From Acetobacteraceae bacterium (GTDB taxonomy: Bacteria; Pseudomonadota; Alphaproteobacteria; Acetobacterales; Acetobacteraceae): 38,013 nucleotides of DNA. Where the stretch lies: positions 1 to 38,013 of the forward strand of contig JARLIJ010000081.1 of NCBI GenBank assembly GCA_031291795.1, given 5' to 3'. Made by a program: the position numbers and the translations under genes. The notes beneath the pieces are model-generated. The model had not been told where the DNA came from. It did no database searches and saw nothing but the letters and a program-made list of their open reading frames with translations. Every line of letters begins with the position of its first letter. Position 1 is the stretch's first letter. This document shows, in pieces, positions 8,198 to 38,013 of this stretch.

Positions 8198-9166
8198 TCA
8201 ATCCTGCAGTTCGGGGATCACCCAAAGCGGCTTGTCGCCCCGGATCACCCGCTGGCAGTTGTCGAATGCGTTGCGGAACCGGGTGTATTGGTTGTCCCAG
8301 GTCGGCCCGGCGAAATGCGCGGTCAGCGTGACATTCGGCAGCGCGAACAGCGGGTTGTTAGGCGGCGGCGGTTCCTGGTCGAACACGTCCAGCCCGGCGC
8401 CAGCAATGGTGCCGGCCGTCAGCGCCTCGATCAGCGCCGGCTCGTCCACCACCGGTCCGCGGCAGGTGTTCACCAGATATGCCGAAGGCTGCATCAGCTT
8501 GAGCTGCGCCGCCCCGATCATGTGCTTCGTCTCCCGCGTCAGCGGCACATGCAGCGAGACGATGTCGGAGGTCCGCAACACCTCCTCGAACAGCGAGAAC
8601 CGTACGCCCAGCGTATCGGCCTGGTCCTCGGTCAACCGGAGGATGTCGTAGTACTGCACGTCCATGCCGAACGCCTTGGCCAGCCGCGCGGTCTTCTTCC
8701 CGATCGTGCCGAGACCGATGATGCCGAGGGTGCGGCCCTTCAGCTCATAGAGCTTCACGTCCTGCGTGTTGTTGCCCCGCCACCGCCCGGCCGCGACGTT
8801 GGCGTGCTGCCACACGATGCGCTTGGCGACGGCGAGCATCAGCAGGATGGCGTGCTCCGCCACCGCCGTGGAATTGGCCCCGCCATTGTTGCAGATCGGC
8901 ACCCCGGCCCGCCGTGCGGCCTCGATATCGCAGCGGTCGTAGCCAGCGGACAGCAGCTGTACGAGCTTCAGATTTGGCGCGGCCTTGTAGAACGCGTCGT
9001 CCATCGAGGGGTCGCCGAAGCCCACCAGGCACACGGCATCCGCCAAGGCGTCCTTGAATGCGGGTGTGCCGGAGCGGGCAACGACCATGTCGAGGCTGGG
9101 CGGCACCAGCTCGTGCGCGATGCTGACCTCATTCAGCGGATTGTCGGCGAGGATGATCTTGGCCAT
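8198..9166 (-). CDS. D-isomer specific 2-hydroxyacid dehydrogenase
   Basis: 322 residues, NAD(P)-dependent, interconverting a 2-oxoacid and a D-2-hydroxyacid. The Rossmann motif GLGTIG is at 151-156, followed by D174, which favours NAD. The catalytic triad is present: R236 (NTCRG), E265 (FDQEPP) and H284 (LTAHFAG). The flanking catalytic domain is formed by the first about 100 and last about 30 residues. It belongs to the glyoxylate/hydroxypyruvate reductase-like branch; the substrate is not defined. It is a different subtype from the dehydrogenase at 36663, which has a GxGxxP motif. The gene stands alone, convergent with the MFS gene. Confidence 0.9.
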   Translation of the reverse strand: MAKIILADNPLNEVSIAHELVPPSLDMVVARSGTPAFKDALADAVCLVGFGDPSMDDAFYKAAPNLKLVQLLSAGYDRCDIEAARRAGVPICNNGGANSTAVAEHAILLMLAVAKRIVWQHANVAAGRWRGNNTQDVKLYELKGRTLGIIGLGTIGKKTARLAKAFGMDVQYYDILRLTEDQADTLGVRFSLFEEVLRTSDIVSLHVPLTRETKHMIGAAQLKLMQPSAYLVNTCRGPVVDEPALIEALTAGTIAGAGLDVFDQEPPPPNNPLFALPNVTLTAHFAGPTWDNQYTRFRNAFDNCQRVIRGDKPLWVIPELQD

Positions 9167-21735: not shown

Positions 21736-23181
21736 TCAGGACTCCAGCATGCGCCGCAGCAGCTCGACATCCTCGGCGAAACTGCTGTCACACTGCATCA
21801 GCTCGCCGATCCGGCTGACGGCATGCATCACGGTGGTATGGTCCCGGTTGCCGAACTTGCGGCCGATCTCCGGCAGGCTGCGGCTGGTGAGCTGCTTGGC
21901 GAGGTACATCGCGACCTGGCGCGGCCGCGCCACAGCACGCGCGCGGCGGGCGGAGGACATGTCGGTCAGGCGGATATTGTAATGTTCCGCCACCTTGCGC
22001 TGGATTTCCTCGATCGTCACCCGCCGGTCGTGCGCCTTCAGGATATCGTGCAGCACTTCCTGCGCGGATTCCAGGGTGATCGGCCGGCCGAACAGGTTGG
22101 CATGCGCGACCAGGCGATTGAGCGCGCCCTCCAGCTCCCGCACGTTGGAGGTGATCTTGTGCGCCAGGAACTCCATCACCTTGCTGGGCACCGGGATTCC
22201 GGCGCGCGCGGCCTTGGCCTCCAGGATGGAGATGCGCAGCTCGAACGTCGTGGCATGCAGGTCGGCCACCATGCCGCAGCCAAGGCGGGTGCGCAGCCGA
22301 TCCTCCAGCCCCGACAGGTCGGAGGGCGACTTGTCCGCCGACACCACGATCTGCCGCCCGGCATCCACCAGGGCGTTGAAGGTGTGGAAGAATTCTTCCT
22401 GCGTGTTGTCCTTGCCGATCAGGAACTGCAGGTCGTCGATCATCAGCACGTCGACGCTGCGCAGGGTTTCCTTGAACTCCATCGTCGACTGGCTGCGGAT
22501 CGCGGCGATGAAGCGGTACATGAACTTCTCGGCCGACATATAGGCAACCGAGACCGGGCGGCGCTGCTCGCCGGCCTGGCGCGAGGCCATTTCCCAGGCG
22601 ATCGCGTGCATTAGATGGGTCTTGCCCAGCCCGACACCGCCGTACAGGAACAGCGGATTGAACCCGGCACTCGACGGCAGTTCAGCCACGCGCCGCGCGC
22701 AGGCATAGGCGAATTCGTTCGGCTTCCCCACCACGAACCCGTCGAACGTGAAGCGTGGATCGAGCGCGGCGGTCAGATCGGGGCGGGGTTCGGCGCGGTC
22801 TTCGTTCCGGCTGGCAGCAAACAGGGCGGTGGGCGGCTCGACAGGCGGCGGTTCGGCGGTCTGCGCCAGGCTTTCGGCCAGCGGACCGATCGGCCCCATC
22901 GCGCCTCCCACCCGGATTTCCACGCGCCGGACCGTGGGGACCTCAGCGTGCCAGAGTGCGCTGAGTCGATCACCATAGCGGCTGCGCACCCAGTCGCGCA
23001 GGAACCGGGTTGGCAGGTGAACGGTCACCTCGTCGCCGTCAACACCTGCGAGCGTCATTTGCCGCAGCCAGGTGCGGTATTCGACCTCACCAACTTCGTG
23101 CTGCAGGCGTCCCCGGATGCGGGCCCATTGGGCGGCGATTTGCGGCGTCTCCACGATTTCCAGCTCCGTGATCGTGGCCAT
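21736..23181 (-). CDS. dnaA: chromosomal replication initiator DnaA
   Basis: 481 residues, usual length. Domain I occupies about 1-90 (WLRQMTLAGVDGDEVTVHLP), followed by a Pro-rich linker. The AAA+ core has Walker A GGVGLGKTH (181-189, K187), Walker B VLMIDDLQFL and sensor segments. The domain IV DNA-binding helix has the signature FGNRDHTTVMHAVSRI. DnaA opens the replication origin with ATP bound. The ATG 23181 is preceded by GGAG. The AT-rich gap 23182-23617 separates it from rpsT, a common neighbour. I found no clear DnaA boxes there, so the origin is probably elsewhere. Confidence 0.97.
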   Translation of the reverse strand: MATITELEIVETPQIAAQWARIRGRLQHEVGEVEYRTWLRQMTLAGVDGDEVTVHLPTRFLRDWVRSRYGDRLSALWHAEVPTVRRVEIRVGGAMGPIGPLAESLAQTAEPPPVEPPTALFAASRNEDRAEPRPDLTAALDPRFTFDGFVVGKPNEFAYACARRVAELPSSAGFNPLFLYGGVGLGKTHLMHAIAWEMASRQAGEQRRPVSVAYMSAEKFMYRFIAAIRSQSTMEFKETLRSVDVLMIDDLQFLIGKDNTQEEFFHTFNALVDAGRQIVVSADKSPSDLSGLEDRLRTRLGCGMVADLHATTFELRISILEAKAARAGIPVPSKVMEFLAHKITSNVRELEGALNRLVAHANLFGRPITLESAQEVLHDILKAHDRRVTIEEIQRKVAEHYNIRLTDMSSARRARAVARPRQVAMYLAKQLTSRSLPEIGRKFGNRDHTTVMHAVSRIGELMQCDSSFAEDVELLRRMLES

Positions 23182-23578
23182 CCTGTGCTCCCATGCACCG
23201 GCGGTTGGCACCCGCCGAACCCTCAGCACGTGCCGCGGATTTCCACCGCGGAAGCGAAAACTTCCCACCCGGGCGTATCGGGGGGTCGGAAATTACGGGT
23301 GAAGGGCGGCCGGCTTGGCCGCATCGATGGAGGTAGGTTAAGGCGGCATGAACAGCGTGGCAATGGCAAACTTGAAGGGGCAGCACTATCGCAAATTAAG
23401 TCACCAGTTACGACAAATCTTGCAACAAGATTGCCAAATACGATGATCACTTCTCTGAAGTATGACTTATGTAGTATTGTGTCGCGGAGCAACGCTCGAC
23501 ATGACACGCACGATCAAACACAGTCCTGAGACTGCTTGCTCGCTTAACAGATATCACCATTACACTTGTCGTCACATA
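23182..23578. other. dnaA upstream region, AT-rich
   Basis: About 400 bp with no gene. The part at about 23380-23578 is AT-rich. A perfect inverted repeat AATCTTG-CAA-CAAGATT lies at 23416-23432, some 235 bp upstream of the dnaA start, and could be an operator. I found no close match to TTATNCACA on either strand. The dnaA promoter should lie here, but I could not pick one confidently. Confidence 0.5.
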
Positions 23579-23600
23579 CGGTCAACCTCCCGGTTGACCG
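23579..23600 (-). terminator. hairpin downstream of rpsT
   Basis: A 9-bp perfect stem (CGGTCAACC with GGTTGACCG) around a four-base loop lies 18 bp past the rpsT stop. No T run follows on the minus strand. It probably ends rpsT transcription before dnaA. Confidence 0.6.
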
Positions 23601-23617
23601 TTTGGACGAGGAAATTT

Positions 23618-23887
23618 TCAGCCCGCGACGAGTGCCTTGATACGGGCTGAAAGCCGCGACAGCTTGCGTGCGACTGTGTTGTCGTGGATCACGCCCTTGT
23701 CCGCCGCGCGCTGCATCTCGGGCTGCGCCGCACGCAGGGCCTCGGCCGCCGCGGCCTTGTTGCCGCCGGCGATCGCCATTTCGACCTTCTTCACAAAGGT
23801 CCGCATCCGCGACTTCCGTGCGTGGTTGCGCTCGGTGCGTCGCTCGGTCTGACGAATGCGCTTGCGCGCTGAAGCAGTATTGGCCAT
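23618..23887 (-). CDS. rpsT: 30S ribosomal protein S20
   Basis: 89 residues beginning [13 protein letters not shown], the standard S20 N-terminus, rich in Lys, Arg and Ala. It binds 16S rRNA early in 30S assembly. The family-typical C-terminal [13 protein letters not shown] is present. The frame continues upstream to 23923 with [12 protein letters not shown], but S20 proteins begin at MANTAS, so 23887 is the start; the ribosome site there is weak. The gene is upstream of dnaA on the same strand. Confidence 0.96.
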
Positions 23888-24047: not shown

Positions 24048-25517
24048 TCACAGGATCAGGCCAGGCCGGGTTTCTGCGTCCAGCGGCCAGATCGGCCGCT
24101 GGACACGGGTGTACGGGATCCGGCGGTAGTCCCGGCTCAACGGGCCGTCGGCATCGACGTAGATCACGTTCTGCGCGACCGGTCCGAACGCCGCCATGAA
24201 ATGGTTGGTCGACTTTACCAGCAGCAATTTCAATTCGGTCGGCTCGATGCCGAGGTTGCGGAACAGCTCCAACCCCAGCGCCTGGGTGCGGTTGCTGATC
24301 AGCACCACCTGCACGCCGCCGACCTGCACCGCGGCGCAATCGCCCAGCGGCACCTGGGTCGGGCCGAAGCTCTGCCAGCAATCCCGCCGCAGGCCCGTCA
24401 CGGTCACTTCGGCGTCCGCCGGCGTGCCCGACGCCGGCCCCGTCTTGCCGCCGAAGCGCAGCGGGAAGCGGGCGCCCAGACCGGCATCGAAGCACAGCCG
24501 CACCGCGATCGGGTCCCAGATCGGCCCGACGGCCGCGTCCGACACCGCCCGCTCGATCAGCCGGCGCAAGATCGTGGTGTTGTCCGAGGGCGCGCCTCCG
24601 CCTGCGTTATCCGCCGGGTCGGCCATCACGACCGGGTTGCCGTTGAACGCCAGGGCTGCGTCGATCGCCGCCTCGACCGGCAGGTAGTCCGGTGCGGTGC
24701 GCCCGCGCATGCCAATGAACTCCTGGCCTATTTCGGTGGCCAGCCGGTCGGCCTGCGCCTTGTCGCCATCCGTCACCACCAGGATGCGGCCCGACAGCTC
24801 CGCGACGTCGGCATAGGGGAAGCAGTGGCAGATCGAGACCGACAGCACCCCGTCCTTGCCCTCCAGTGCGGCGGTCTTGTCGACGAAGGCGCGCATCAGC
24901 GGCAGCGTCGTGGGGTAGCTGCCGATCTGCCGGCAGTCGTACAGCGACATCACCGGCCGGATCTCCCGACGGATGGCCCGGAGCACCAGGGTGAGCAGGT
25001 CCTCGGCCCGCTCCACCACATCGGTGTGTGGAAATTCCTTATAAAGAATGATGATGTCGGACAGCCGCACGCGCTGCAGGGTCAGGTGGCAGTGCGGATC
25101 CAGCTCTACCCCGATCACGCAATCCGGCCCGACCAGGGCCCGCACCCGCGCGATCACGTCACCCTCCACGTCATCATAGCCATGGGCCACCATCGCGCCG
25201 TGCAGGCCGAGCAGGACACCGTCGAGCGGGAGGGCCGCCTGCACCTGGCCGAGGATCTCGTCGCGCATCGCCTCATAGTCGGCCCGATTGGTGGTGCCGG
25301 CCGGACTGGCGGCGAAGCAGCTGCCTTCGACCAGGGCGAAGCCCTCGGCGGCGGCCCGCCGGCGGGCAACCCAGAGCGGGGCGGTGCACATCAGCGGCGT
25401 ATCGTCGGGATGCTCGCCAGGACGGAGGAACACGCTCTCCTTGTAGGCCTCCAGGCTGGTGGGCAAGGGCGAGAAGGTGTTGGTCTCGGTGGCGATGGTA
25501 GCGGCGAACATGCGCAT
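24048..25517 (-). CDS. M81 family metallopeptidase (MlrC-like)
   Basis: 489 residues, full length for the family (MlrC of microcystin degradation is the named member). The zinc ligands are visible as D140 and H142 (ELDPHCHL) and H164 (FPHTD). Residues 1-290 form the DUF1485 domain (ATIATETNTFSP at the start) and the rest the MlrC C-terminal domain (MADPADNAGGGAPSDNT). Most relatives are not microcystin-related and probably act on small amide-bond substrates. ATG 25517 follows GGAGG. It is third in a minus-strand series with a PLP enzyme and a GMC oxidoreductase, behind a LysR gene, suggesting a catabolic set. Confidence 0.88.
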   Translation of the reverse strand: MRMFAATIATETNTFSPLPTSLEAYKESVFLRPGEHPDDTPLMCTAPLWVARRRAAAEGFALVEGSCFAASPAGTTNRADYEAMRDEILGQVQAALPLDGVLLGLHGAMVAHGYDDVEGDVIARVRALVGPDCVIGVELDPHCHLTLQRVRLSDIIILYKEFPHTDVVERAEDLLTLVLRAIRREIRPVMSLYDCRQIGSYPTTLPLMRAFVDKTAALEGKDGVLSVSICHCFPYADVAELSGRILVVTDGDKAQADRLATEIGQEFIGMRGRTAPDYLPVEAAIDAALAFNGNPVVMADPADNAGGGAPSDNTTILRRLIERAVSDAAVGPIWDPIAVRLCFDAGLGARFPLRFGGKTGPASGTPADAEVTVTGLRRDCWQSFGPTQVPLGDCAAVQVGGVQVVLISNRTQALGLELFRNLGIEPTELKLLLVKSTNHFMAAFGPVAQNVIYVDADGPLSRDYRRIPYTRVQRPIWPLDAETRPGLIL

Positions 25518-25633
25518 TTCGGCGGGCCTCCGGCTGGTGTCCTGCCCCGAAGTTCGCTGCCCTTTGCAGCGGATGTAGGGGATCAGCAGGCCACTGAAAA
25601 CAAAGGGCTGGCGTCCCCTGGCGGGCGTCGTTC

Positions 25634-26785
25634 TCAGATGCGCAACCGCGCCCCGATGATGGCAGCATGGTGCGGCGCGAGCGAGACCGGCGAGAACAGC
25701 AGCACGCCGTCCAGCCGGCGCGCGAGCGAGCAATGGATCGGCGGATCGCCCGCGGCCAGGCGGGCGGCGACCCCGTCGGGATCGCCGGTCGTGAGTTCCA
25801 GCAGCGGCACCGGCCGTTCCAGGATCCGAAGTTCAGGCGGATTGCCGGCCGCCGCGGCGATGGCTTCCAGGATTGCGCGCCATGCGACGTGCCGCGCGCG
25901 CTCGTCTTCACTGGCGAACCGTTCCAGCGCAACCAGCAGGCCGACGATCTCTTCCTTGCCGGTCTTGCAGGAGCGGCCGATGCCGTGCAGCGGCAGGCCG
26001 GGCAGCTGGGCCAGTGGCGCGAATTCCGCCGGCGGGAGGAACTGCGCGGGAAACAGGTCCAGGTCGAGCATCTGGATCAGCGCGGAACTGACCAGGTCGC
26101 GCCGGCCGCACAGGATGCCGGACGCCTGCGGGCCGCCGATCGCCTTGCCGCCGCTGAACGCGACCAGGTCGGCGCCCTCGGCCAGGAACCGCTGCAGGTT
26201 GCCGGCCGGCGGAAGCTGCGCCGCCGCGTCCACCATCAGCGGCAGTTGGTGCGCGCGGGCGACCGCGGCGACCTCCGGCAAGGTGGGCAGCGATTGCGGC
26301 TGAGCGAGCCAGAGGATGCCGGCGGTCTGTGGGGTGATCGCGGCCTCGATCTCCCATGGCGCCGCGTCGCGCACGCCGGGGCCGCTGTAGCGGTCCGGAA
26401 TGCCGACCTCCACGATGCGCCCGCCGGCCAGGGTCAGGACCCGGTCGTACATGTTGCGCTGGCTGCGCACGACCAGGAAGTCCCGCTGCGGTCCGGCGTC
26501 GGGCAGTCGATTCATCCGCGCCGGGTCGAGGCCGGCGAGGCAGGCAGCGGCGCCCAGCAGCAGGCCGGCCGAGGCGCCGGCGGTGACGATCCCCGCCTCG
26601 GCCCCTGTCACCCGTGCGATCACCCGGCTGGCGCCGGCCTGTAAGGCAAGCATGTCCACGCATTCGCCGGAAGCTGCCTGCATGGCAGCCGTGACGTCGG
26701 GGTGCATCCGGCCGCCCGACAGCCGGGTGACGGTGCCGCAGGCGTTGATCACGGTCGGTACGCCGAATTGGGCGTAGATGCTCAT
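25634..26785 (-). CDS. SelA-like PLP-dependent enzyme
   Basis: 383 residues, fold type I, of the selenocysteine-synthase / D-glucosaminate-6-phosphate ammonia-lyase group. It is not true SelA, which is longer. The PLP lysine is K214 in FSGGKAIGGPQASG and the ring-nitrogen aspartate D186 in MVDAAAQLPP. The N-terminus has the characteristic VINACGTVTRLSGG. Relatives catalyse beta- or gamma-elimination on amino acids or sugar acids; the substrate is unknown. The start at 26785 is the family N-terminus, with a weak ribosome site. The gene lies between the M81 peptidase (116-bp gap) and the GMC oxidoreductase (142-bp gap), a frequent companion arrangement for M81 proteins. Confidence 0.85.
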   Translation of the reverse strand: MSIYAQFGVPTVINACGTVTRLSGGRMHPDVTAAMQAASGECVDMLALQAGASRVIARVTGAEAGIVTAGASAGLLLGAAACLAGLDPARMNRLPDAGPQRDFLVVRSQRNMYDRVLTLAGGRIVEVGIPDRYSGPGVRDAAPWEIEAAITPQTAGILWLAQPQSLPTLPEVAAVARAHQLPLMVDAAAQLPPAGNLQRFLAEGADLVAFSGGKAIGGPQASGILCGRRDLVSSALIQMLDLDLFPAQFLPPAEFAPLAQLPGLPLHGIGRSCKTGKEEIVGLLVALERFASEDERARHVAWRAILEAIAAAAGNPPELRILERPVPLLELTTGDPDGVAARLAAGDPPIHCSLARRLDGVLLFSPVSLAPHHAAIIGARLRI

Positions 26786-29670: not shown

Positions 29671-30084
29671 ATGTCGTACCGGACCCTGGAGGGGGTGTCT
29701 CCGACCCTGTTCGGGGACGCAGCACTGCGCGACCGGATGAACGCTGCCCGGTCCGCGATGGACACGGCCCTGCGCACGATCGTCACACGCCGCGAATTGG
29801 TCGAGCTGGATGAGCGCGCTTTGGCCGATATCGGCCTGACGCGGGCCGAGGCACTGGCCGAGGCGAAGCGCAACCCGTGGAACATTGAGCCGCCGCGCCG
29901 GCCGGAGCGCCCGCGTCGGATCGCCATGTTGGTCGGCATGGTCCAGACGCAGCTGCGCGAGGCCTGGCGCCGCCATCGCTCGCGCCAGGCGATTACCGGC
30001 CTGAACGCACGCATGCTGAAAGATATTGGCGTCAGCTACGCCGAGGCCGAGTGCGAAGCCAACAAGGCGTTCTGGCGGCGGTAA
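29671..30084 (+). CDS. double DUF1127 protein, 137 aa
   Basis: Two DUF1127-like units lie in one chain: RRELVELDERALADIGLTR (about 45-65) and RHRSRQAITGLNARMLKDIG (about 102-121), each followed by an Ala/Glu-rich tail ending near a Trp (NPWN; AFWRR). DUF1127 proteins are normally 45-100 residues with one unit, so this is a tandem form. Some relatives are RNA-binding regulators. The ATG follows GGAGAG at good spacing. It is divergent from the LysR gene and convergent with the second GMC gene. Confidence 0.82.
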   Translation: MSYRTLEGVSPTLFGDAALRDRMNAARSAMDTALRTIVTRRELVELDERALADIGLTRAEALAEAKRNPWNIEPPRRPERPRRIAMLVGMVQTQLREAWRRHRSRQAITGLNARMLKDIGVSYAEAECEANKAFWRR

Positions 30085-30199: not shown

Positions 30200-31822
30200 T
30201 TAAGCCGCCGCCGCAAGCGGTTCGCGCCGGCGCACCAGATCCGCGGCCTTCTCGGCGATCATGATGGTGGCGGCGTTGGTGTTGCCCGACACCACCGCCG
30301 GCATGATCGAGGCATCCACCACCCGCAGCCCCGCCACGCCGTGAACGCGCAGCTCCGCGTCCACCACCGCCATCGGGTCGCTGCCCATCTTGCAGGTGCT
30401 GGTCGGGTGGAACACCGTCCCACCGAATTGCCGCGCATAATCCAGCAGCTCGTCGTCGGTCCGCACCGCATCGCCGGGAATGTATTCGCTGCTGATGAAA
30501 TGCTGCATGTCCGGCGTCGCCAGCAGCCGCCGCGCCAGGTTCAACCCGTCCACGATCGTCCGCCTGTCGGTCTCGGTCGCCAGGTAGTTCGGATGCATTG
30601 CCGGCGCCACCGCCGGATCGGGCGATTTCAACTTCAATTCGCCGCGGCTCTCCGGACGGAGCTGATAGGCGGTGATCGAGAAGCCGGAGAATTTGTGCAG
30701 TCCCTCGGCCGGCCGGTCCGCGCTGAAGATCACCGTCGCGAACTGCACGTCCGGCGTCGCCAGCTCGGGACGCGTGCGGGCGAACAGCCCCGCCTGCGCG
30801 GCCGCGATCGTCAGCGGCCCGCGGCGGGCCAGGATATATTCCAGGCCGGTCTTCATCATGCGGACCTTGCTCATCATGATATCGTTGACGGTGATCGGGA
30901 ACCGGCATTTCAGGACCACGCGTGCCTGGTAGTGGTCCTGCAGGCTCTGCCCGACGCCCGGCAGCGCGTGCCGCACCGCGATGCCATGCGACGCCAGATG
31001 CGCGGCCGGCCCGATGCCCGACAGCAGCAGCAATTGCGGTGAGTTCAGCGCCCCGCCGCACACGATCACCTCCCGCCGCGCCCGAATCGTGCGGCTGGCC
31101 CCGCCCTGGCGATAGGTCACGCCGACCGCGCGCCGGCCCTCCAGCAACACACGCTCCGACAGCGCGTGGGTGATCACCTGCAGGTTCGGCCGCTTCATCG
31201 CCGGGCGCAGATAGCCGACCGCAGTGGAGCAGCGCCGGCCGTTGCGCGTGGTCAGGTGGTAATAGCCCGCCCCTTCCTGCACCCGGCCGTTGAAGTCGTC
31301 GTTGCGCGGAAAGCCGAGGTCCAGCGCGCTCTTGATGAATGCCTTGCTGATCGGGTCGTAGGTGTGCATGTCGGAGACCGCGAGCGGACCGCCGGTGCCA
31401 TGCAGTTCGTTGCCGCCACCGATCCGGTCCTCGGCGCGCTTGAAATACGGCAGCACATCGTCGAACGACCAGCCGGCATTACCGAGTTGGCGCCAGTGGT
31501 CGAAATCCTCGGCCTGGCCGCGGATATAGACCAGGCCGTTGATCGAGGACGAGCCGCCCAGCACTTTGCCGCGCGGCCAGAAGAAGCGGCGGCCGTTCAG
31601 GTCGGGTTCGGTCTCGTAGCACCAGTTCACCCGCGGATCGGCGATGGTCTTGCCGTAGCCCAGCGGGATGTGGATCCAGGGATTGCGGTCGGGTCCGCCG
31701 GCTTCCAGCAGCACGACCTTGCTGGCGGGATCTTCCGACAGGCGCGCCGCCATGACGCACCCGGCGGAGCCGGCACCCACCACGATGAAATCCGCTTCGA
31801 TGCTGTCCTGCCGTGCGACCAT
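30200..31822 (-). CDS. GMC family oxidoreductase, copy 2
   Basis: 540 residues, FAD-dependent. Motifs are GAGSAGCVMAARLSE, PRGKVLGGSSSINGLVYIRG, GGALNSPQLLLLSGIGP and the catalytic H472 in FHPTSTCKMG. It aligns end to end with copy 1 (26928-28547), sharing long stretches such as the STAVGYL-PAMKRPNL region, so the two arose by duplication; substrate preference may differ. The ATG 31822 follows AAGGAA at good spacing. It is divergent from the carbamoyltransferase operon with 156 bp between starts, so the two may share control. Confidence 0.93.
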   Translation of the reverse strand: MVARQDSIEADFIVVGAGSAGCVMAARLSEDPASKVVLLEAGGPDRNPWIHIPLGYGKTIADPRVNWCYETEPDLNGRRFFWPRGKVLGGSSSINGLVYIRGQAEDFDHWRQLGNAGWSFDDVLPYFKRAEDRIGGGNELHGTGGPLAVSDMHTYDPISKAFIKSALDLGFPRNDDFNGRVQEGAGYYHLTTRNGRRCSTAVGYLRPAMKRPNLQVITHALSERVLLEGRRAVGVTYRQGGASRTIRARREVIVCGGALNSPQLLLLSGIGPAAHLASHGIAVRHALPGVGQSLQDHYQARVVLKCRFPITVNDIMMSKVRMMKTGLEYILARRGPLTIAAAQAGLFARTRPELATPDVQFATVIFSADRPAEGLHKFSGFSITAYQLRPESRGELKLKSPDPAVAPAMHPNYLATETDRRTIVDGLNLARRLLATPDMQHFISSEYIPGDAVRTDDELLDYARQFGGTVFHPTSTCKMGSDPMAVVDAELRVHGVAGLRVVDASIMPAVVSGNTNAATIMIAEKAADLVRRREPLAAAA

Positions 31823-31942: not shown

Positions 31943-31970
31943 TTGCCACGGTGCCGGGACATGCTAGATT
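31943..31970 (+). promoter_or_regulatory. promoter of the carbamoyltransferase operon
   Basis: TTGCCA (31943-31948), a 16-bp spacer and TAGATT (31965-31970). The expected transcription start is at about 31977, two bases before ATG 31979. This excludes the upstream in-frame ATG at 31961, which lies inside the promoter, if the promoter is real. Confidence 0.5.
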
Positions 31971-31978
31971 CATTTCGT

Positions 31979-34240
31979 ATGAGCGCGGAATATGGCATGA
32001 TCAGGCTGGCGCCGAACGGCCGTTTCGGCCCGACACACCCATGGCTCGCCGCGCTGGCGCGGACCATCGCCTATCCGATCCTCAAGGCCTACGCGGCACG
32101 CCACGGTTTCCACACGCCGGACAGCGCCTATGCGCGGGCACAAGGCGCCGACCTCGCCGCGCGCCTCGCCCGCGGCGAGACGGTCCATCTGCTTGGCCTG
32201 GCGCCGGCCGGCCATAACAGCGGCGCCGCCCTGGTCGAGGTTTCCGCCGCCCAGGGCGTGCAGCTGCTGCGCAACGACGAGGAGGAACGCTATACCGGCA
32301 TCAAGAACTGCACCGACTACCCGCGGCACAGCGTCGCCGCCGTCCTGGCATTCGCCGCCGCGCGCGGCCTGACCATCCATAGCTGTCTGGCGAGCTGGGA
32401 CTTCGTCCGCCTCGGCGCCAGCCTGGCCGGCGCGATGGCAGCGGAGCTGCCGCGCAGCCGCAACTTCCTTGCGGCAGAGGCGTTCGGCGCGATGAACGCC
32501 CGCCACCTCGATGCCGCCCTCCGCAGCCCCAAGGCGTTCGGCCGCCAGATGAGATCCGGCCAGATGGGACGCGGCCTGATGGCACGCGGCCAGATGGGAG
32601 CAGGCCAGATGGGAGCAGGCCAGATGGGAGCAGGCTTGGCGATGCCGATCATCGGTATGCCGCATCACGGCAACCACGCCTGGTTCTCCCACGCCGTGTC
32701 GCCGTTCGCCGACAGCGCCGCTCCGGTGCTGGTCACGGTGCTGGACGGCTTCGGGGATAATGGCGCGATCTCGGTCTACCTGGCGCGCAACGGCCGACTG
32801 GCGCTGCTGGACCGCAACACCGACCCGTTCGACTCGCTGGGCGGGTTCTACAGCATGATCAGTTCCACCCAGGGCGGCTGGACCATCCTCAGCAGCGAGG
32901 GCCGCTATATGGGGGCCGTCGCCTGGGGCGACAGCGATCGGCTGACCAACGGGTATTACCGTCGCCTGCGCCAGATCTTCCATCTCGGCCCAGGCGGCAC
33001 GGTGCGGCTGAACCGCGCCCTGGCCAACTGGCCGCGCTGCCTGCAGCGCGCGCCTTACACGGCGGCGCTGACCGAGATCCTCGGGCCGCCGATCCCGCCC
33101 GAGGCGCTGTGGAACCCGGATGCGGTGCTGAAAATCGATGCTGGCGACAAGGCCCCCGGCGATGCCGACCGCTTCGACAAGGCCGCGGCGACGCAGCTCG
33201 TGTTCGAGGACGCGCTGTGCCACATCCTCGACCATCACATCCGTGCGACCGGCGCCAGCCGCCTCGTGCTGGCCGGCGGCACCGCGTTGAACGCGCTGGC
33301 CAATATGCGGCTGATGCAGCATTTCGACCGCGCCTATTACCGCCGGGTCCTTGGCCGCGACGACACGTTGCATGTCTGGGTGCCGCCGATCCCCAGCGAC
33401 CCGGGGGTGGCGGCCGGGGCGGCATACCAGTTCGCGTTGCATCATGGCGCGACCCACGCGGCACCGCTGCGCCATGCCTTTCACTGCGGCGATGCCCCCA
33501 CCGATGCGGCGATCGAGGCCGCCTTGCGCGCCGGCCCCGATATCGGCTGGACCGCGCTGCCCCGGCTCGACGGGCCGGCCAGCCGCGCACGCATCGCCGA
33601 TTTCCTGGCATGCTGCATCGCCAGGGATGGTGTGGTCGGCCTGTTCCAGGGCGCGGCCGAGACCGGCCCGCGCGCCCTCGGTCACCGCTCCATTCTCGCC
33701 AATGCCTGCAATCCGCGCACGTTGGAGACCATCAACCGGCGGGTGAAGTTCCGCGAGCCGTTCCGCCCGCTGGCGCCCATGACCACGCTCGCCGCGGCAC
33801 GGCGCTTCTGGGATCTGGAGGAGGGTGCGCTGGACGACGACGCCAACGCGTACGGCTACATGGTGCTGACGGTGATGGCCCGGCCCGAGGCGTATGATCG
33901 TGTGCCGGCTGTGATCCATCGCGACGGCACCAGCCGCATCCAGGTCGTCCGTCCCGATATCGATCCATTCACCCACGACTACCTCCTCGCGCTCGGGCGC
34001 CGCTGCGGGGTGGAGGTCTCGGTCAATACCTCGCTGAACGTCGCCGGGCCGATCGTGCAGACCGCCGGCCAGGCGTTGGAGGCCCTGCGCCGCGCCCGTG
34101 CCATGGACGGGTTGCTGCTGCTGGGCGCCGAGGGCGGGGCCTGGCTCGCCTGGCACGCCGTCGATACCCCGCCAAAGGATGGCGGCAGGCGAATCGGCAG
34201 CTGGTTGCGCGCGTGGCAGGACGAGCCGGCGCTCGCCTGA
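31979..34240 (+). CDS. carbamoyltransferase (NodU/CmcH/TobZ family) with a pentapeptide repeat insert
   Basis: 753 residues from ATG 31979. Such enzymes make carbamoyl-adenylate from carbamoyl phosphate and ATP, then carbamoylate a hydroxyl of a sugar or secondary metabolite. The N-terminal Kae1-like domain shows LAPAGHNSGAALVE, the metal-binding cluster HHGNHAWFSHA (H229, H230, H233) and DGFGDNGAISVYL. The C-terminal part shows ETGPRALGHRSIL, REPFRPLAP and NTSLNVAGPIVQT. Relatives are about 550-700 residues; here a Gly-Gln-Met-Gly-Ala repeat (residues about 189-221) sits just before the metal-binding histidines. Starts at 31961 and 31997 are alternatives; 31997 has a GCGGAA ribosome site. 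It probably heads an operon with the kinase, enolase-like and dehydrogenase genes. Confidence 0.88.
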   Translation: MSAEYGMIRLAPNGRFGPTHPWLAALARTIAYPILKAYAARHGFHTPDSAYARAQGADLAARLARGETVHLLGLAPAGHNSGAALVEVSAAQGVQLLRNDEEERYTGIKNCTDYPRHSVAAVLAFAAARGLTIHSCLASWDFVRLGASLAGAMAAELPRSRNFLAAEAFGAMNARHLDAALRSPKAFGRQMRSGQMGRGLMARGQMGAGQMGAGQMGAGLAMPIIGMPHHGNHAWFSHAVSPFADSAAPVLVTVLDGFGDNGAISVYLARNGRLALLDRNTDPFDSLGGFYSMISSTQGGWTILSSEGRYMGAVAWGDSDRLTNGYYRRLRQIFHLGPGGTVRLNRALANWPRCLQRAPYTAALTEILGPPIPPEALWNPDAVLKIDAGDKAPGDADRFDKAAATQLVFEDALCHILDHHIRATGASRLVLAGGTALNALANMRLMQHFDRAYYRRVLGRDDTLHVWVPPIPSDPGVAAGAAYQFALHHGATHAAPLRHAFHCGDAPTDAAIEAALRAGPDIGWTALPRLDGPASRARIADFLACCIARDGVVGLFQGAAETGPRALGHRSILANACNPRTLETINRRVKFREPFRPLAPMTTLAAARRFWDLEEGALDDDANAYGYMVLTVMARPEAYDRVPAVIHRDGTSRIQVVRPDIDPFTHDYLLALGRRCGVEVSVNTSLNVAGPIVQTAGQALEALRRARAMDGLLLLGAEGGAWLAWHAVDTPPKDGGRRIGSWLRAWQDEPALA
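32543..32641 (+). repeat. 15-bp minisatellite coding for GQMGA repeats
   Basis: The unit GGCCAGATGGGAGCA is present three times exactly (32588-32632), with degenerate copies upstream (32543-32587) and a partial copy downstream. All units stay in frame, so copy number can change in steps of five residues without breaking the protein. Confidence 0.9.
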
Positions 34241-34372
34241 CGGTGTCCGGAGGCGGTCCGCCCGTGGGACGCGTGTCGGGTCACGGCCCCGGTCGGGCCG
34301 TCTCGGCATCGGGTGCATGCTGTGGCAGGAGAAGATGGTAGTCGACCGCCATACCCGCTGGAGCCGTAAAGG

Positions 34373-35380
34373 ATGCCCTCAGCCGCCCCGCCCGCCGAGA
34401 TCCTGGAGGCCTTGCGCCGCATGGGCCTGCCGGCCGACGCCGGCACGACCGGCGAGCGGCTGACCGGTGGCGTCTCCTCCGATATCTGGCGCATCGATCT
34501 GCCCAATGGTCCGGTCTGCGTGAAACGCGCGCTTGCGAAGCTGAACGTCGCCGCCGAGTGGCACGCGCCCGTCGAACGCAACCGCTACGAGGCCCGCTGG
34601 ATGCAGCGCGCCGACGCCGCAATCCCCCACGCCGCCCCCCGCCTGCTCGGACAGGACGCAGCGAACGGCGCGCTGGCGATGGAATTCCTCTCGCCGCACG
34701 ACCATCCGCTGTGGAAGTTGCAGCTCCGCGACGGCCACGCCGACCCGGATTTCGCGGCGCGGGTGGCGCGCAGCCTCGTCGCCATCCATGCCGCCACCGC
34801 CGCCGATGCCTCGATCGCCGCCGACTTCCCGACCGATGCGATCTTTTACGACATCCGCCTGGAACCCTATCTGGTCGCGACCGGTCGCGCCCATCCCGAC
34901 CTCGCGGCGCAGCTTGACGGCCTGGTTGCCACCACCCAGGCCAACAAGCGCGCGCTGGTGCATGGTGACGTCAGCCCGAAGAACATCCTCGCCGGGCCGT
35001 TCGGACCGGTGTTCCTGGACGCCGAGTGCGCCTGGTGGGGCGATCCGGCGTTCGACCTGGCGTTCTGCCTCAATCACCTGTTGTTGAAGTGCCTGTGGAC
35101 GCCGACGGCGCGCGACGGCTTCCTCGCCTGTTTCGACGCATTGGCTGCCACCTACGCCGCCGGGGTGGCCTGGGAAGCACCGGCCGCGCTCGAAGCCCGC
35201 GCAGCCCGTTTGCTGCCCGCATTGTTCCTGGCCCGGGTGGATGGCAAGTCGCCGGTCGAGTACATCACCACTGAGGCGGACAGGAATCGCGTGCGCCGCA
35301 CCGCCCGCGCCCTGCTGGCCGCCCCGCCGGATCGGCTGGACGCGGTGCGTCAGGCCTGGACAAGGGAGCTTACCGGATGA
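34373..35380 (+). CDS. APH-type small-molecule kinase
   Basis: 335 residues, aminoglycoside-phosphotransferase / choline-kinase fold. The ATP lysine K51 (VCVKRAL), the probable helix glutamate E73, the catalytic loop HGDVSPKNIL (H197, D199, N204) and the Mg aspartate D216 (FLDAECAWWGDPAFDLAF) are all present, so it should be active. It phosphorylates a hydroxyl of an unknown metabolite. It lies 132 bp after the carbamoyltransferase, and its stop overlaps the enolase-like ATG by 4 bp (ATGA). Antibiotic resistance is possible from family membership alone, but the coupling to an enolase-like gene points to biosynthesis or catabolism. Confidence 0.87.
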   Translation: MPSAAPPAEILEALRRMGLPADAGTTGERLTGGVSSDIWRIDLPNGPVCVKRALAKLNVAAEWHAPVERNRYEARWMQRADAAIPHAAPRLLGQDAANGALAMEFLSPHDHPLWKLQLRDGHADPDFAARVARSLVAIHAATAADASIAADFPTDAIFYDIRLEPYLVATGRAHPDLAAQLDGLVATTQANKRALVHGDVSPKNILAGPFGPVFLDAECAWWGDPAFDLAFCLNHLLLKCLWTPTARDGFLACFDALAATYAAGVAWEAPAALEARAARLLPALFLARVDGKSPVEYITTEADRNRVRRTARALLAAPPDRLDAVRQAWTRELTG

Positions 35381-36663
35381 CGGACAGCAAGATCGCCTTC
35401 GTGCACGGCCGCCGGGTATGGGACAGCCGCGGCCGTCCCACCGTAGAGGCCGACGTATTGCTGGAAGGCGGTGCGGTCGGTCGTGCCATTGCGCCGGCAG
35501 GCGCCTCTACCGGCAGCGGCGAGGCGCTGGACCTGCGCGACGGCGGCGATGCATTCGGCGGCTACGACGTCCGCCACGCGGTCGAGAACGTGAATACCGA
35601 GATCGCACATGCCGTGATCGGCCTCGATGCGACCAACCAGGCGGCGCTCGACCAGCGCCTGATCGCGCTCGATGGCACACCGAACAAGTCCCGCCTGGGC
35701 GCCAACGCCGTGCTCGCGGTGTCGATGGCCACGGCACACGCCGCCGCCGCCGCGGCCGGCCAGCCGCTATACCGCTACCTCGGCGGGCCGGAGGCAGACC
35801 TGATCCCGCTGCCGCAGATCCAGATCTTCGGCGGCGGCGCCCATGCCGGGCGGCGCGTCGACATCCAGGACTTCATGGTGATGTGCCCGGCCGCCGACAG
35901 TTTCGCGCAGGCCCTGGACTGGACCGCCGAGGTCTATCGCGCCGCCGGCAAGCTGATGGCCGAGGCCGGCACCCTGGCCGGTGTCGCCGACGAGGGCGGT
36001 TGGTGGCCGGTGTTCGCCACCAATGAGCAGGCGCTCGACATGCTGGTCCGCGCCATCGAGCGTGCTGGCTTCCGCCCTGCCGAGCAGGTCGGCATCGCGC
36101 TCGACATCGCGGCCTCGGAGTTCGGCCATGGCGGGATATACAAACTGGCGCTGGAGGACCGCGCACTCGACACCGGCGGCATGATCGACCTGCTTGGCGG
36201 CTGGCTGCGCCGCTACCCGATCCTGTCGATCGAGGACCCGCTGGCCGAGGACGATGCCGATGGCTTCGCCGCCTTCACCCGCGCGCATGGCGAGAAGGTA
36301 CAGATCGTCGGCGACGATTTCCTGGTCAGCGACGCCGCCCGGGTGCGCGAGGCCGCCGCCCGCGGCGCCGCCAACACCGTGCTGTTGAAGCCCAACCAGC
36401 GCGGCACGCTGACCGAAACCCTCGCCGCCTGGGATGCCGCCTGCGAAGCCGGCTACGGCGGCATCGTCTCCGCCCGCTCCGGCGAAACCGAGGACACCAC
36501 GATCGTCCACCTCGCGGTCGGCTGGGGCGCCGGCCAGCTCAAGGTCGGCAGCTTCGCCCGCAGCGAGCGCATGGCGAAATGGAACGAGGCGCTGCGGGTG
36601 GAGGAAGCCCTTGGCGCGCGTGCCCGGTTCGCTGGCGGGACCATGCTGGGATCCAGCCACTGA
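35377..36663 (+). CDS. enolase-like protein with altered active site
   Basis: 428 residues, full enolase length and fold. Mg ligands are kept: D243, E286 and D313/D314. The catalytic pair K338 (yeast K345) and E206 (E211), together with K389 (K396), H156 (H159), loop S44 (S39) and the phosphate-binding R367-S368 (R374-S375), are kept. Two substrate-site positions change: A366 stands for H373 (SARSGETED instead of SHRSGETED) and D165 for E168 (QDFM instead of QEFM). DEGGWWP also replaces DEGGFAP. So it probably performs an enolase-type elimination on an analogue of 2-phosphoglycerate. It overlaps the kinase (4 bp) and the dehydrogenase (1 bp). It is unlikely to be the glycolytic enolase. Confidence 0.9.
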   Translation: MTDSKIAFVHGRRVWDSRGRPTVEADVLLEGGAVGRAIAPAGASTGSGEALDLRDGGDAFGGYDVRHAVENVNTEIAHAVIGLDATNQAALDQRLIALDGTPNKSRLGANAVLAVSMATAHAAAAAAGQPLYRYLGGPEADLIPLPQIQIFGGGAHAGRRVDIQDFMVMCPAADSFAQALDWTAEVYRAAGKLMAEAGTLAGVADEGGWWPVFATNEQALDMLVRAIERAGFRPAEQVGIALDIAASEFGHGGIYKLALEDRALDTGGMIDLLGGWLRRYPILSIEDPLAEDDADGFAAFTRAHGEKVQIVGDDFLVSDAARVREAAARGAANTVLLKPNQRGTLTETLAAWDAACEAGYGGIVSARSGETEDTTIVHLAVGWGAGQLKVGSFARSERMAKWNEALRVEEALGARARFAGGTMLGSSH

Positions 36664-37595
36664 TGAAAATCGTGTTCCACAGCGCTGCCGGCCCCGATCT
36701 GGCGGCGCGACTGGACGCGATTCCCGATCTGGACATCACCGCCTGCCCCGAGGCCGACGACGCCCTGCTGGCCCGCCTGCTGCCGGACTGCGATGCGTTG
36801 TGGCACGTTCTGAAGCCATGCACCGCCGCGATGATCGCCGCGGCCCCGAAGCTCCGGCTGATCCAGAAGATCGGCGTCGGCGTGAACACGATCGACCTGG
36901 AGGCAGCCAGGGCGCGCGGCATCCCGGTCTGCAACCTGCCAGGGACGAATTCCCGCGCGGTGGCGGAACTGGCGCTGACCCTGATGCTGACGGCGCTGCG
37001 CCGCGTGACGCGGTTCGATGCGGAACTGCGGGCGGGCATCTGGTCGAACCCGGACTTGCGGGACGGCATCGGGGAGTTGGGCGGACGCGTTGTCGGGCTG
37101 GTGGGTTACGGCGCCGTGCCCCGAATCCTCGCCCCTGTCCTGACCGCGCTTGGCTGCCGGCTGATCTACCACGCGCCGAGGCAGGTTGCCGACCCGCCGG
37201 GGCCGTGGCGGACGCTGGCGGACCTGCTGGCGGAGGCCGACCTGGTCAGCCTGCACGTGCCGCTGACACCGCAGACCACGCACATGATCGACACCGGCGC
37301 GCTGGCGCGGATGAAACCCGGTGCGGTGCTGGTGAACACCGCCCGCGGCGAGTTGGTGGACCAGCCGGCGCTGACCGCGGCTCTGCGCGACCGACGGCTG
37401 GCCGCGGCCGGGCTGGACGTGTTCGACGGCGAGCCGATCGACCCTGCCGACCCGTTGTTGACGCTGCCGAACGTGGTGGTGACACCGCATGTCGCCTGGC
37501 TCAGCACCGGCACGTTCGACCGGAGTTTTGCACTCGCCGCGGAGAACTGCCGGCGAGTGGCGGCGGGAGAAGAGCTGCTGCACCGGGTGGTGTAA
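36663..37595 (+). CDS. D-2-hydroxyacid dehydrogenase (operon-linked)
   Basis: 310 residues, NAD(P)-dependent. The catalytic residues are R228 (NTARGE), E257 (FDGEP) and H276 (VTPHVAW). The cofactor motif GYGAVP (148-153) has Pro where the third Gly normally stands. After the second strand the sequence is YHAPRQ, without the usual Asp that selects NAD, so NADP use is possible. The catalytic domain (about 1-100) is of phosphoglycerate-dehydrogenase type. The ATG overlaps the enolase-like stop (TGATG), showing translational coupling. The paralogue at 8198-9166 is a distant subtype. It probably reduces or oxidises the product or precursor of the kinase/enolase steps. Confidence 0.9.
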   Translation: MKIVFHSAAGPDLAARLDAIPDLDITACPEADDALLARLLPDCDALWHVLKPCTAAMIAAAPKLRLIQKIGVGVNTIDLEAARARGIPVCNLPGTNSRAVAELALTLMLTALRRVTRFDAELRAGIWSNPDLRDGIGELGGRVVGLVGYGAVPRILAPVLTALGCRLIYHAPRQVADPPGPWRTLADLLAEADLVSLHVPLTPQTTHMIDTGALARMKPGAVLVNTARGELVDQPALTAALRDRRLAAAGLDVFDGEPIDPADPLLTLPNVVVTPHVAWLSTGTFDRSFALAAENCRRVAAGEELLHRVV

Positions 37596-38013
37596 GGCTT
37601 GGACCCAGCGTAAGGCAGAGCGGCGGCAGCAAGGTGGCCGGGGCGTGGCTGGGTCTGCAGCCGCCCTGATCCGGTGGCCTACGATGTCGGCGGGCCGGGC
37701 GGCGTGCTCCTCGATGCGGCCGGGCGGGACCGGCAGAACCTGCCGATGCACGACGGCCCCGGACCAGCGCAGCACCGCATTTCAACACGGAGGACGGAAG
37801 GCGAGGGCCACTGAGGGCCACGGAGAGACTGTGCCGCGTGATTGGCCCGAGGCCTCTCCCGCAGCACGCGGCCTCCGTGGCCCTCGCCTTCCGTCCTCCG
37901 TGTTGAAATGCGGTCTCGCCAGGACCCCAGGCGCCGGGAAAGTCGGCGTGCCGATAGCGATCCGGCGCGCGGGGCCTGTCACACCGCTCAGCGATCGGCG
38001 TTCGGTCGCGTGA
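37596..38013. other. distal intergenic region
   Basis: No supported gene. The only clear element is the 139-bp foldback at 37775-37913. The last 100 bp are GC-rich and uninformative; they could be the start of the next region. Confidence 0.5.
37775..37913. repeat. large foldback element with perfect 37-bp inverted arms
   Basis: Bases 37775-37811 are the exact reverse complement of 37877-37913. The 65-bp centre contains a second 8-bp arm pair (37833-37840 with 37865-37872) and a direct 9-bp repeat of GAGGGCCAC (37803-37811, 37813-37821). It lies 180 bp past the operon end. The arms contain CACGGAGGACGG-type sequence of the kind seen in dispersed repeats of other genomes (recollection, not checked). 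It may be a mobile miniature element or a strong terminator. Confidence 0.85.

Follow-up and report, generated by a model that had tools for sequence, protein, structure and literature searches.

The window analysed here is a stretch of 38,013 nucleotides, contig JARLIJ010000081.1 (positions 1 to 38,013, forward strand) of the Acetobacteraceae assembly GCA_031291795.1; it is contig C278 of a genome of 4.87 Mb in 417 contigs that is 68.81% complete. Between positions 31,979 and 37,595 it carries genes for a carbamoyltransferase, a small-molecule kinase, an enolase paralog and a 2-hydroxyacid dehydrogenase, and a GMC oxidoreductase gene lies divergent from them. The kinase, enolase and dehydrogenase genes form one operon. 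The kinase and the enolase, whose active site is altered, travel together through many distant microbes, and the kinase-enolase module probably leads, by a pathway not yet described, from an acid of the glycerate kind to phosphoenolpyruvate (PEP) or a relative of it. The locus holds the following features.

31979 to 34240, plus strand: NodU/TobZ-type carbamoyltransferase (ATG to stop, read from the DNA)
34373 to 35380, plus strand: APH/methylthioribose-kinase-fold small-molecule kinase, putatively a 2-hydroxyacid 2-kinase (DNA, Pfam, structure model)
35377 to 36663, plus strand: enolase paralog with Asp165 and Ala366 replacing Glu and His (TIGR01060, alignment, tree)
36663 to 37595, plus strand: D-isomer-specific 2-hydroxyacid dehydrogenase, putatively a 2-oxoacid reductase or acting in reverse (Pfam)
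30200 to 31822, minus strand: GMC oxidoreductase, divergent neighbour (Pfam, PRK02106)
35377 to 35380, plus strand: ATGA, 4-bp overlap of the kinase stop and the enolase start (sequence)
36661 to 36665, plus strand: TGATG, enolase stop and dehydrogenase start with a 1-bp overlap (sequence)
31943 to 31970, plus strand: sigma-70-like site 5' of the carbamoyltransferase, a consensus match only (1 found, 0.3 expected)

The gene order, both overlaps, the 132-bp gap between the carbamoyltransferase and kinase genes and the divergent orientation of the GMC gene were re-read from the DNA and agree with an earlier sequence-only reading of the window; 156 bp separate the GMC gene from the start of the carbamoyltransferase. 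The protein families named there are supported by Pfam and NCBIfam, and the Pfam scores of all five locus proteins exceed the curated cut-offs. The promoter claimed for the carbamoyltransferase comes down to the single sigma-70-like site listed above, a weak match given its chance expectation.

The kinase was found in 44 of 145 relatives (E 1e-20 or better), and at least 570 kinase relatives were confirmed in a scan of bacterial and archaeal genomes; Rhodococcus opacus PD630 and Azospirillum brasilense Sp7 are laboratory strains with the module. In a set of 119 kinase loci (L061-L180, some contigs counted twice) an enolase of the window's type is present in 111. It lies directly 3' of the kinase, on the same strand and within 600 bp, in 108 of the 119, and farther away or on the opposite strand in three (L129, L145, L158); six of the eight loci that lack it are on short contigs or have the kinase close to where a contig ends. 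Among 299 phylum genomes, drawn evenly and with the window genome included, the kinase profile (E 1e-30 or better) matches nine and a DNA pattern for the enolase motif SARSGE[ST]ED matches nine, and these are the identical genomes; the pattern takes exact matches only and would miss the haloarchaeal form SARSGETSD. Two of the nine (G182 and G245) have the genes ~8 and ~5 kb apart on opposite strands. Distances between kinases correlate with distances between enolases (r 0.87 over 126 pairs, the best of 500 shuffles giving 0.29; species relatedness is uncontrolled). The 108 linked loci and the identical occurrence in nine of 299 genomes place the linkage beyond chance. The view that kinase and enolase paralog belong together is thus borne out, and the possibility raised with it, that the two are never linked in other genomes, does not describe what was found.

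The earlier label "enolase-like" was right as to family but understated the match. The protein scores 171.3 bits for Enolase_N and 293.6 for Enolase_C, and it passes TIGR01060 (phosphopyruvate hydratase) over its whole length with 502.5 bits, the cut-off being 300. The sequence-only reading had also considered that it might be the only enolase of its genome. At least two enolase matches are held by 28 of the 30 kinase-bearing genomes searched, and in the window genome, which is incomplete, only the linked one was found. The kinase-bearing genome G091 has an ordinary enolase only, and G026, counted as kinase-less, carries this enolase type at a contig end. In the 30-genome search the linked enolases are 58-91% identical to that of the window, short contig-end pieces aside, and the others are mostly 46-52% identical to it where the match is long.

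The linked enolases share a double change in the active site. Asp165 and Ala366 are present in all 100 that were compared (partial ones, those with stops and identical copies excluded), whereas Glu and His stand there in 20 of 20 other enolases of relatives, which were called housekeeping by resemblance only. These are the positions of yeast Glu168 and His373, the yeast numbering being assigned by motif and spacing without an alignment to the yeast protein; the spacings are the same in the window (H159-E168 9, K345-H373 28, H373-K396 23, D320-K345 25). We take the altered positions to lie beside the C3 hydroxyl of the enolase substrate. Trp210, Gly152 and Arg160 are each found in 99 of the 100 and are each unlike other enolases. 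The remaining site residues are present in 100 of 100: K338, K389, E206 and H156 at the positions of yeast Lys345, Lys396, Glu211 and His159, the metal ligands D243, E286 and D313, the loop serine S44, and the unchanged equivalents of Gln167, Arg374 and Ser375. Plasmid records and phylum genomes supplied another 26 linked enolases, and both changes are kept in 25 of them, including those of Rhodococcus, Persicobacter and two haloarchaea; the sole exception is a diverged Enterobacter protein. In an unrooted tree of 81 rows a 100/99 branch separates 56 linked enolases (31 of the 100, being the window's, L091, L086 and 28 random ones, and 25 of the 26 further ones, with the diverged L205 left out) from 25 others (5 plasmid enolases and 20 from relatives). 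The simplest reading of the alignment and tree is that the linked enolases would have one origin.

Six residues, His159, Glu168, Glu211, Lys345, His373 and Lys396, are listed as required in yeast enolase in PMC5237310, and two of these six are replaced in every one of the 100. Such a pattern could mean that the paralog is weak or dead as an enzyme and serves as a regulator or partner of a kinase that acts on some unrelated alcohol, but a regulator would have no need of the metal ligands, the two catalytic lysines or the Glu211 equivalent, none of which is lost in any of the 100, and we consider this account improbable. With the magnesium ligands and the Lys, Lys, Glu, His, Gln, Arg and Ser residues all kept, the natural substrate class would be a 2-phospho-3-hydroxy acid, the class that belongs to a conserved enolase site. 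An elimination step carried out by the enolase paralog is plausible.

The kinase has APH as its only Pfam match at E 0.001 (51.8 bits), and at that threshold it does not match the glycerate kinase families PF13660 (DUF4147) and PF02595 (Gly_kinase). Its structure model has a mean pLDDT of 92.5, and the 15 best PDB matches of the model are methylthioribose kinase chains with TM-scores by query of 0.73-0.80 and 14-16% identity. The APH catalytic residues (HGDxSPKN and D216) are kept in at least 97% of 126 kinases, as are Lys115, Arg162, Lys239 and Arg288, which would suggest an acidic substrate. Of the 44 kinase-bearing genomes, 39 have a PF13660 glycerate 2-kinase gene, compared with 62 of the 101 that lack the kinase, and on this count the idea of the kinase as a stand-in for glycerate 2-kinase was rejected. 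PF02595 occurs in 8 of the 145 genomes, none of them kinase-bearing; these numbers are small.

A 2-oxo/2-hydroxyacid redox enzyme, also part of the earlier proposal, is a frequent third member. The window dehydrogenase scores 90.1 bits for 2-Hacid_dh and 180.5 for 2-Hacid_dh_C, and none of the 21 equivalog models listed for it is over its cut-off. A homolog of it is found in 64 of the 119 kinase loci, a ketopantoate-reductase-type (PanE) gene in 11, and both together in none. The one PanE-type gene scanned of the 11 scores 269.7 bits for TIGR00745 (cut-off 141.35). Ten of the 11 PanE-type loci belong to Burkholderiales or to families within it, and ancestry may explain part of this mutual exclusion. 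The dehydrogenases of Rhizobium, Cupriavidus and Rhodococcus are more distant, being 35-40% identical. Both reductase families make (R)-2-hydroxy acids.

We consider it reasonably probable that a 2-oxoacid reductase, a 2-hydroxyacid kinase and an enolase together turn a glycerate-type acid into PEP or an analogue, a scheme in which we infer every reaction, direction, chirality and substrate. The reductase (the D-2-hydroxyacid dehydrogenase or, elsewhere, the PanE type) would form a 2,3-dihydroxy acid, for which (R)/D is the likeliest configuration. Its 2-hydroxyl would then be phosphorylated by the APH-fold kinase with ATP, the enolase paralog would remove the C2 proton and the C3 hydroxyl, and the resulting enol phosphate, PEP or a close analogue, would enter central metabolism. 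The substrate would be a glycerate-family acid, either D-glycerate or a relative with a different C3 group, and the module as a whole would be a mobile catabolic unit. The replacement of one 2-oxoacid reductase family by another, unrelated one across the loci supports this scheme. Several observations weigh on the other side. The enolase is absent from L087 and L173 despite room for it, and in 9 of the 27 loci L201-L227 it lies some kilobases from the kinase. Neither reductase family was found in 44 of the 119 loci, a search that covered close homologs only and in which some contigs end early. Many loci are without recognisable pathway neighbours, and with two of the six residues listed for the yeast enzyme replaced, elimination by the altered enolase could be weak or absent. 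Of the four-step route first suggested, the kinase, the enolase paralog and the frequent redox partner stand, elimination is plausible, and carbamoylation drops out. The likelihoods given here for the general scheme, for its D-glycerate form and for the form with a different acid overlap and are not shares of one whole.

Most neighbours of the module in other organisms are transporters, unrelated genes or genes for the breakdown of sugar acids or hydroxy acids, and they point to sugar- and hydroxy-acid catabolism. Rhizobium clusters have a PEP carboxylase gene beside the dehydrogenase and kinase, together with genes for an extradiol-dioxygenase-like VOC protein, an FMN reductase, an alcohol dehydrogenase, an FAH hydrolase and a CMD protein, and most of these neighbours recur in Rhodococcus. 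Eight of the 27 loci L201-L227 contain a PEP carboxylase gene, counting the query's own locus, and in Rhodococcus opacus PD630 one lies ~18 kb from the module. The PEP carboxylase of L219 scores 1124.9 bits (cut-off 815) and has the usual motifs by eye; no PEP carboxylase match was found by Pfam among the nine window proteins scanned (25.6-37.6 kb). Roseibium and Paracoccus combine LacI, kinase, enolase, FAH hydrolase, SDR and sugar ABC transporter genes. In haloarchaea, mandelate-racemase-type dehydratases, aldolases, sugar ABC transporters and an IlvC paralog are found near the module. L166 has an HpaI/GarL-like aldolase, an SDR and a galactarate-dehydratase-like gene, with models below cut-offs, L077 a gluconolactonase-family gene and L133 an IlvD/EDD dehydratase. 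In 9 of the 44 kinase-bearing genomes the contig of the module kinase also has, downstream and nearby, a short DUF1537-type kinase gene, some with a PdxA-type gene.

The Rhizobium order of reductase, kinase, enolase and PEP carboxylase matches the serine cycle, and the module could be a plain set of D-glycerate isozymes: a dedicated operon for the lower half of that cycle, leading from hydroxypyruvate through D-glycerate and 2-phosphoglycerate to PEP. The L219 carboxylase agrees with this narrow form of the general scheme, and C3 acids would be the products expected of the aldolase, FAH-hydrolase and galactarate-dehydratase-like neighbours; context and PEP carboxylase thus favour a C3 product and with it D-glycerate and 2-phosphoglycerate. 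However, most kinase-bearing genomes already have a PF13660 glycerate 2-kinase gene and a further enolase, and a fixed Glu-to-Asp plus His-to-Ala change is unexpected in a mere isozyme. We hold this form to be possible, in a tentative way.

The changes beside the C3 hydroxyl, the further enolase and the separate glycerate 2-kinase gene favour a different acid. The module would then consist of a neofunctionalised enolase with its own APH-fold kinase, of one origin and spread across Pseudomonadota, Actinomycetota, Bacteroidota and haloarchaea, which together perform a phosphorylative dehydration whose substrate is not D-glycerate but another 2,3-dihydroxy acid (C3-substituted or otherwise different) and whose product is a substituted phosphoenol acid; we regard this form as quite possible, if short of probable. 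L-glycerate was considered as a substrate because hexose-acid hydrolysis can yield it, and was put low since the reductases make (R)-2-hydroxy acids and neither the base nor the metal residues have changed. No supporting neighbour was recognised for sulfolactate or other C3 leaving groups, which were considered as well.

In four loci (L072, L074, L076 and L080) the module genes stand alone among apparent housekeeping genes, as might be expected if the pair cleared a toxic 2-hydroxy acid or its phosphate and did not serve in feeding. In Roseibium, Paracoccus and Rhizobium the module comes with transporters and LacI-type regulators, which argues against such damage control, and we think it quite unlikely. 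A known pathway shared by all loci was sought from context and not reached, as the contexts vary from group to group and in many loci the module is by itself; none of the known pathways accounts for every context seen.

Two other settings were recorded. In L122 a gene of the PEP-mutase/isocitrate-lyase family (3866-4729) lies directly 5' of the kinase, behind TRAP-transporter-like genes, and scores 250.3 bits for the methylisocitrate lyase model (cut-off 354.4). Plasmid enolases of Micrococcus luteus (L234) and Rhodococcus qingshengii (L235) lie by CrcB-family, pyrophosphatase or PAP2 phosphatase genes in what look like fluoride-tolerance islands, with no annotated phosphotransferase gene nearby. 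A role of the altered enolase as a self-resistant or fluoride-tolerant form was set aside: the crcB-adjacent L234 enolase has an ordinary SHRSGE motif, and the L235 stretch was seen in part.

The carbamoyltransferase scores 57.3 bits for Carbam_trans_N and 148.9 for Carbam_trans_C and fails the NodU equivalog model (97.1 bits, cut-off 1000). It is present in 3 of 40 relatives' loci, between the GMC gene and the kinase; in L069 the match is in two separate pieces (residues 11-387 and 573-747). The kinase-enolase pair persists without it, and on this distribution carbamoylation was rejected as a pathway step and the gene is read as accessory, not core. The GMC oxidoreductase scores 204.1 bits for GMC_oxred_N and 639.3 for PRK02106 (cut-off 605), and a GMC-type gene is found in 14 of the 40 loci. 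L065 has no carbamoyltransferase, and there the GMC gene and the kinase are immediate divergent neighbours, so that the carbamoyltransferase has the look of something inserted or of a lineage-specific member. An in-frame 15-bp tandem repeat of 6.1 copies (32544-32635) stands just before the HHGNHA motif of the window carbamoyltransferase; it adds 25 residues and is lacking in the three relatives' copies.

The sequence-only reading had seen in the locus a possible secondary-metabolite route, in which carbamoylation, phosphorylation, elimination and redox act on one product, as in phosphinothricin biosynthesis. The carbamoyltransferase 132 bp upstream would fit such a route, and so would a distant relative of the pair in an operon with a biosynthetic look on an Enterobacter chuandaensis plasmid (L205, NZ_CP097174.1, 10256-24160). 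There a distant kinase and a diverged enolase are mutually divergent among U32 peptidase, aminotransferase, nucleotidyltransferase, M14 peptidase and MFS genes, and L205 looks like a small biosynthetic cluster. But this sole setting of its kind has an enolase only 34% identical, with Lys at the Glu211 position and Gly at 366; the carbamoyltransferase is rare, no phosphonate family was matched by the nine window proteins scanned, and neighbours elsewhere are mostly catabolic, transport or unrelated genes. A secondary-metabolite route is therefore highly unlikely.

Other features of the window lie outside the module. A 43-bp inverted repeat with 98% complementarity (37774-37914) follows 3' of the dehydrogenase and is perhaps a small mobile or palindromic element; contigs C41 and C334 of the window genome have similar copies of 32 bp. 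An M81-peptidase-like gene (named by look) and a DgaE-like PLP gene (TIGR01437 155 bits, cut-off 385) occupy 24048-26785; their relatives adjoin the module in L070, L077, L078 and L093, where a D-threonine-aldolase-like gene (look only) is also present. Adjacent dnaA-like and small rpsT-like genes (names by look) lie at 21736-23806, and such genes are also near the module in L069, L071 and L083. A second gene that clusters with 2-hydroxyacid dehydrogenases is on the minus strand at 8198-9166, and a DUF1127 protein with two domain stretches is encoded at 29671-30081 beside a LysR gene.

Few enzymes are as conserved as enolase, and changes in its active site are rarely anticipated. What appears new is the kinase-coupled enolase lineage with its double site change, enolases and APH-type kinases being known as kinds, and no description of the kinase-enolase pair was recognised in searches of open-licence literature, which is no proof of absence. 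A monophyletic group of kinase-coupled enolases in which two "essential" residues are fixed differently makes a question of enzyme evolution directly testable. In annotated plasmid records the linked enolases are mostly named phosphopyruvate hydratase, so that genome-based models would count them as glycolysis. Should the substrate be new, the module would add a pathway for an acid that may be in use among many soil and plant-associated bacteria.

Among known systems, ordinary enolase (TIGR01060) is matched over the whole length, with metal ligands, catalytic lysines and the Glu211 and His159 equivalents kept; the paralog differs in the Asp and Ala at Glu168 and His373, in its linkage to a kinase and in the further enolase found beside it in 28 of 30 genomes. 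5-Methylthioribose kinase (MtnK) is the nearest solved fold to the window kinase, yet identity is low, the equivalog TIGR01767 is failed (47.4 bits, cut-off 275), and no methionine-salvage gene is among the nine proteins scanned around the kinase. Carboxyphosphonoenolpyruvate synthase of phosphinothricin biosynthesis is an enolase relative with a specialised role and is likened here by description only; unlike that system, the window has no phosphonate families among the nine proteins. The DUF1537 and PdxA2 tetronate pathways are similar as acid-sugar catabolism with a kinase and a dehydrogenase, and such genes lie 3' of the module in several loci. The PdxA2 pathway has a kinase of another family and no enolase. 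The DUF1537 pathway, as given in PMC10580937, likewise differs from the module in kinase family and in having no enolase. The serine-cycle segment of hydroxypyruvate reductase, glycerate 2-kinase, enolase and PEP carboxylase has the same order of reaction types, but the module kinase has the APH fold and not that of PF13660 or PF02595, and the module enolase has an altered site.

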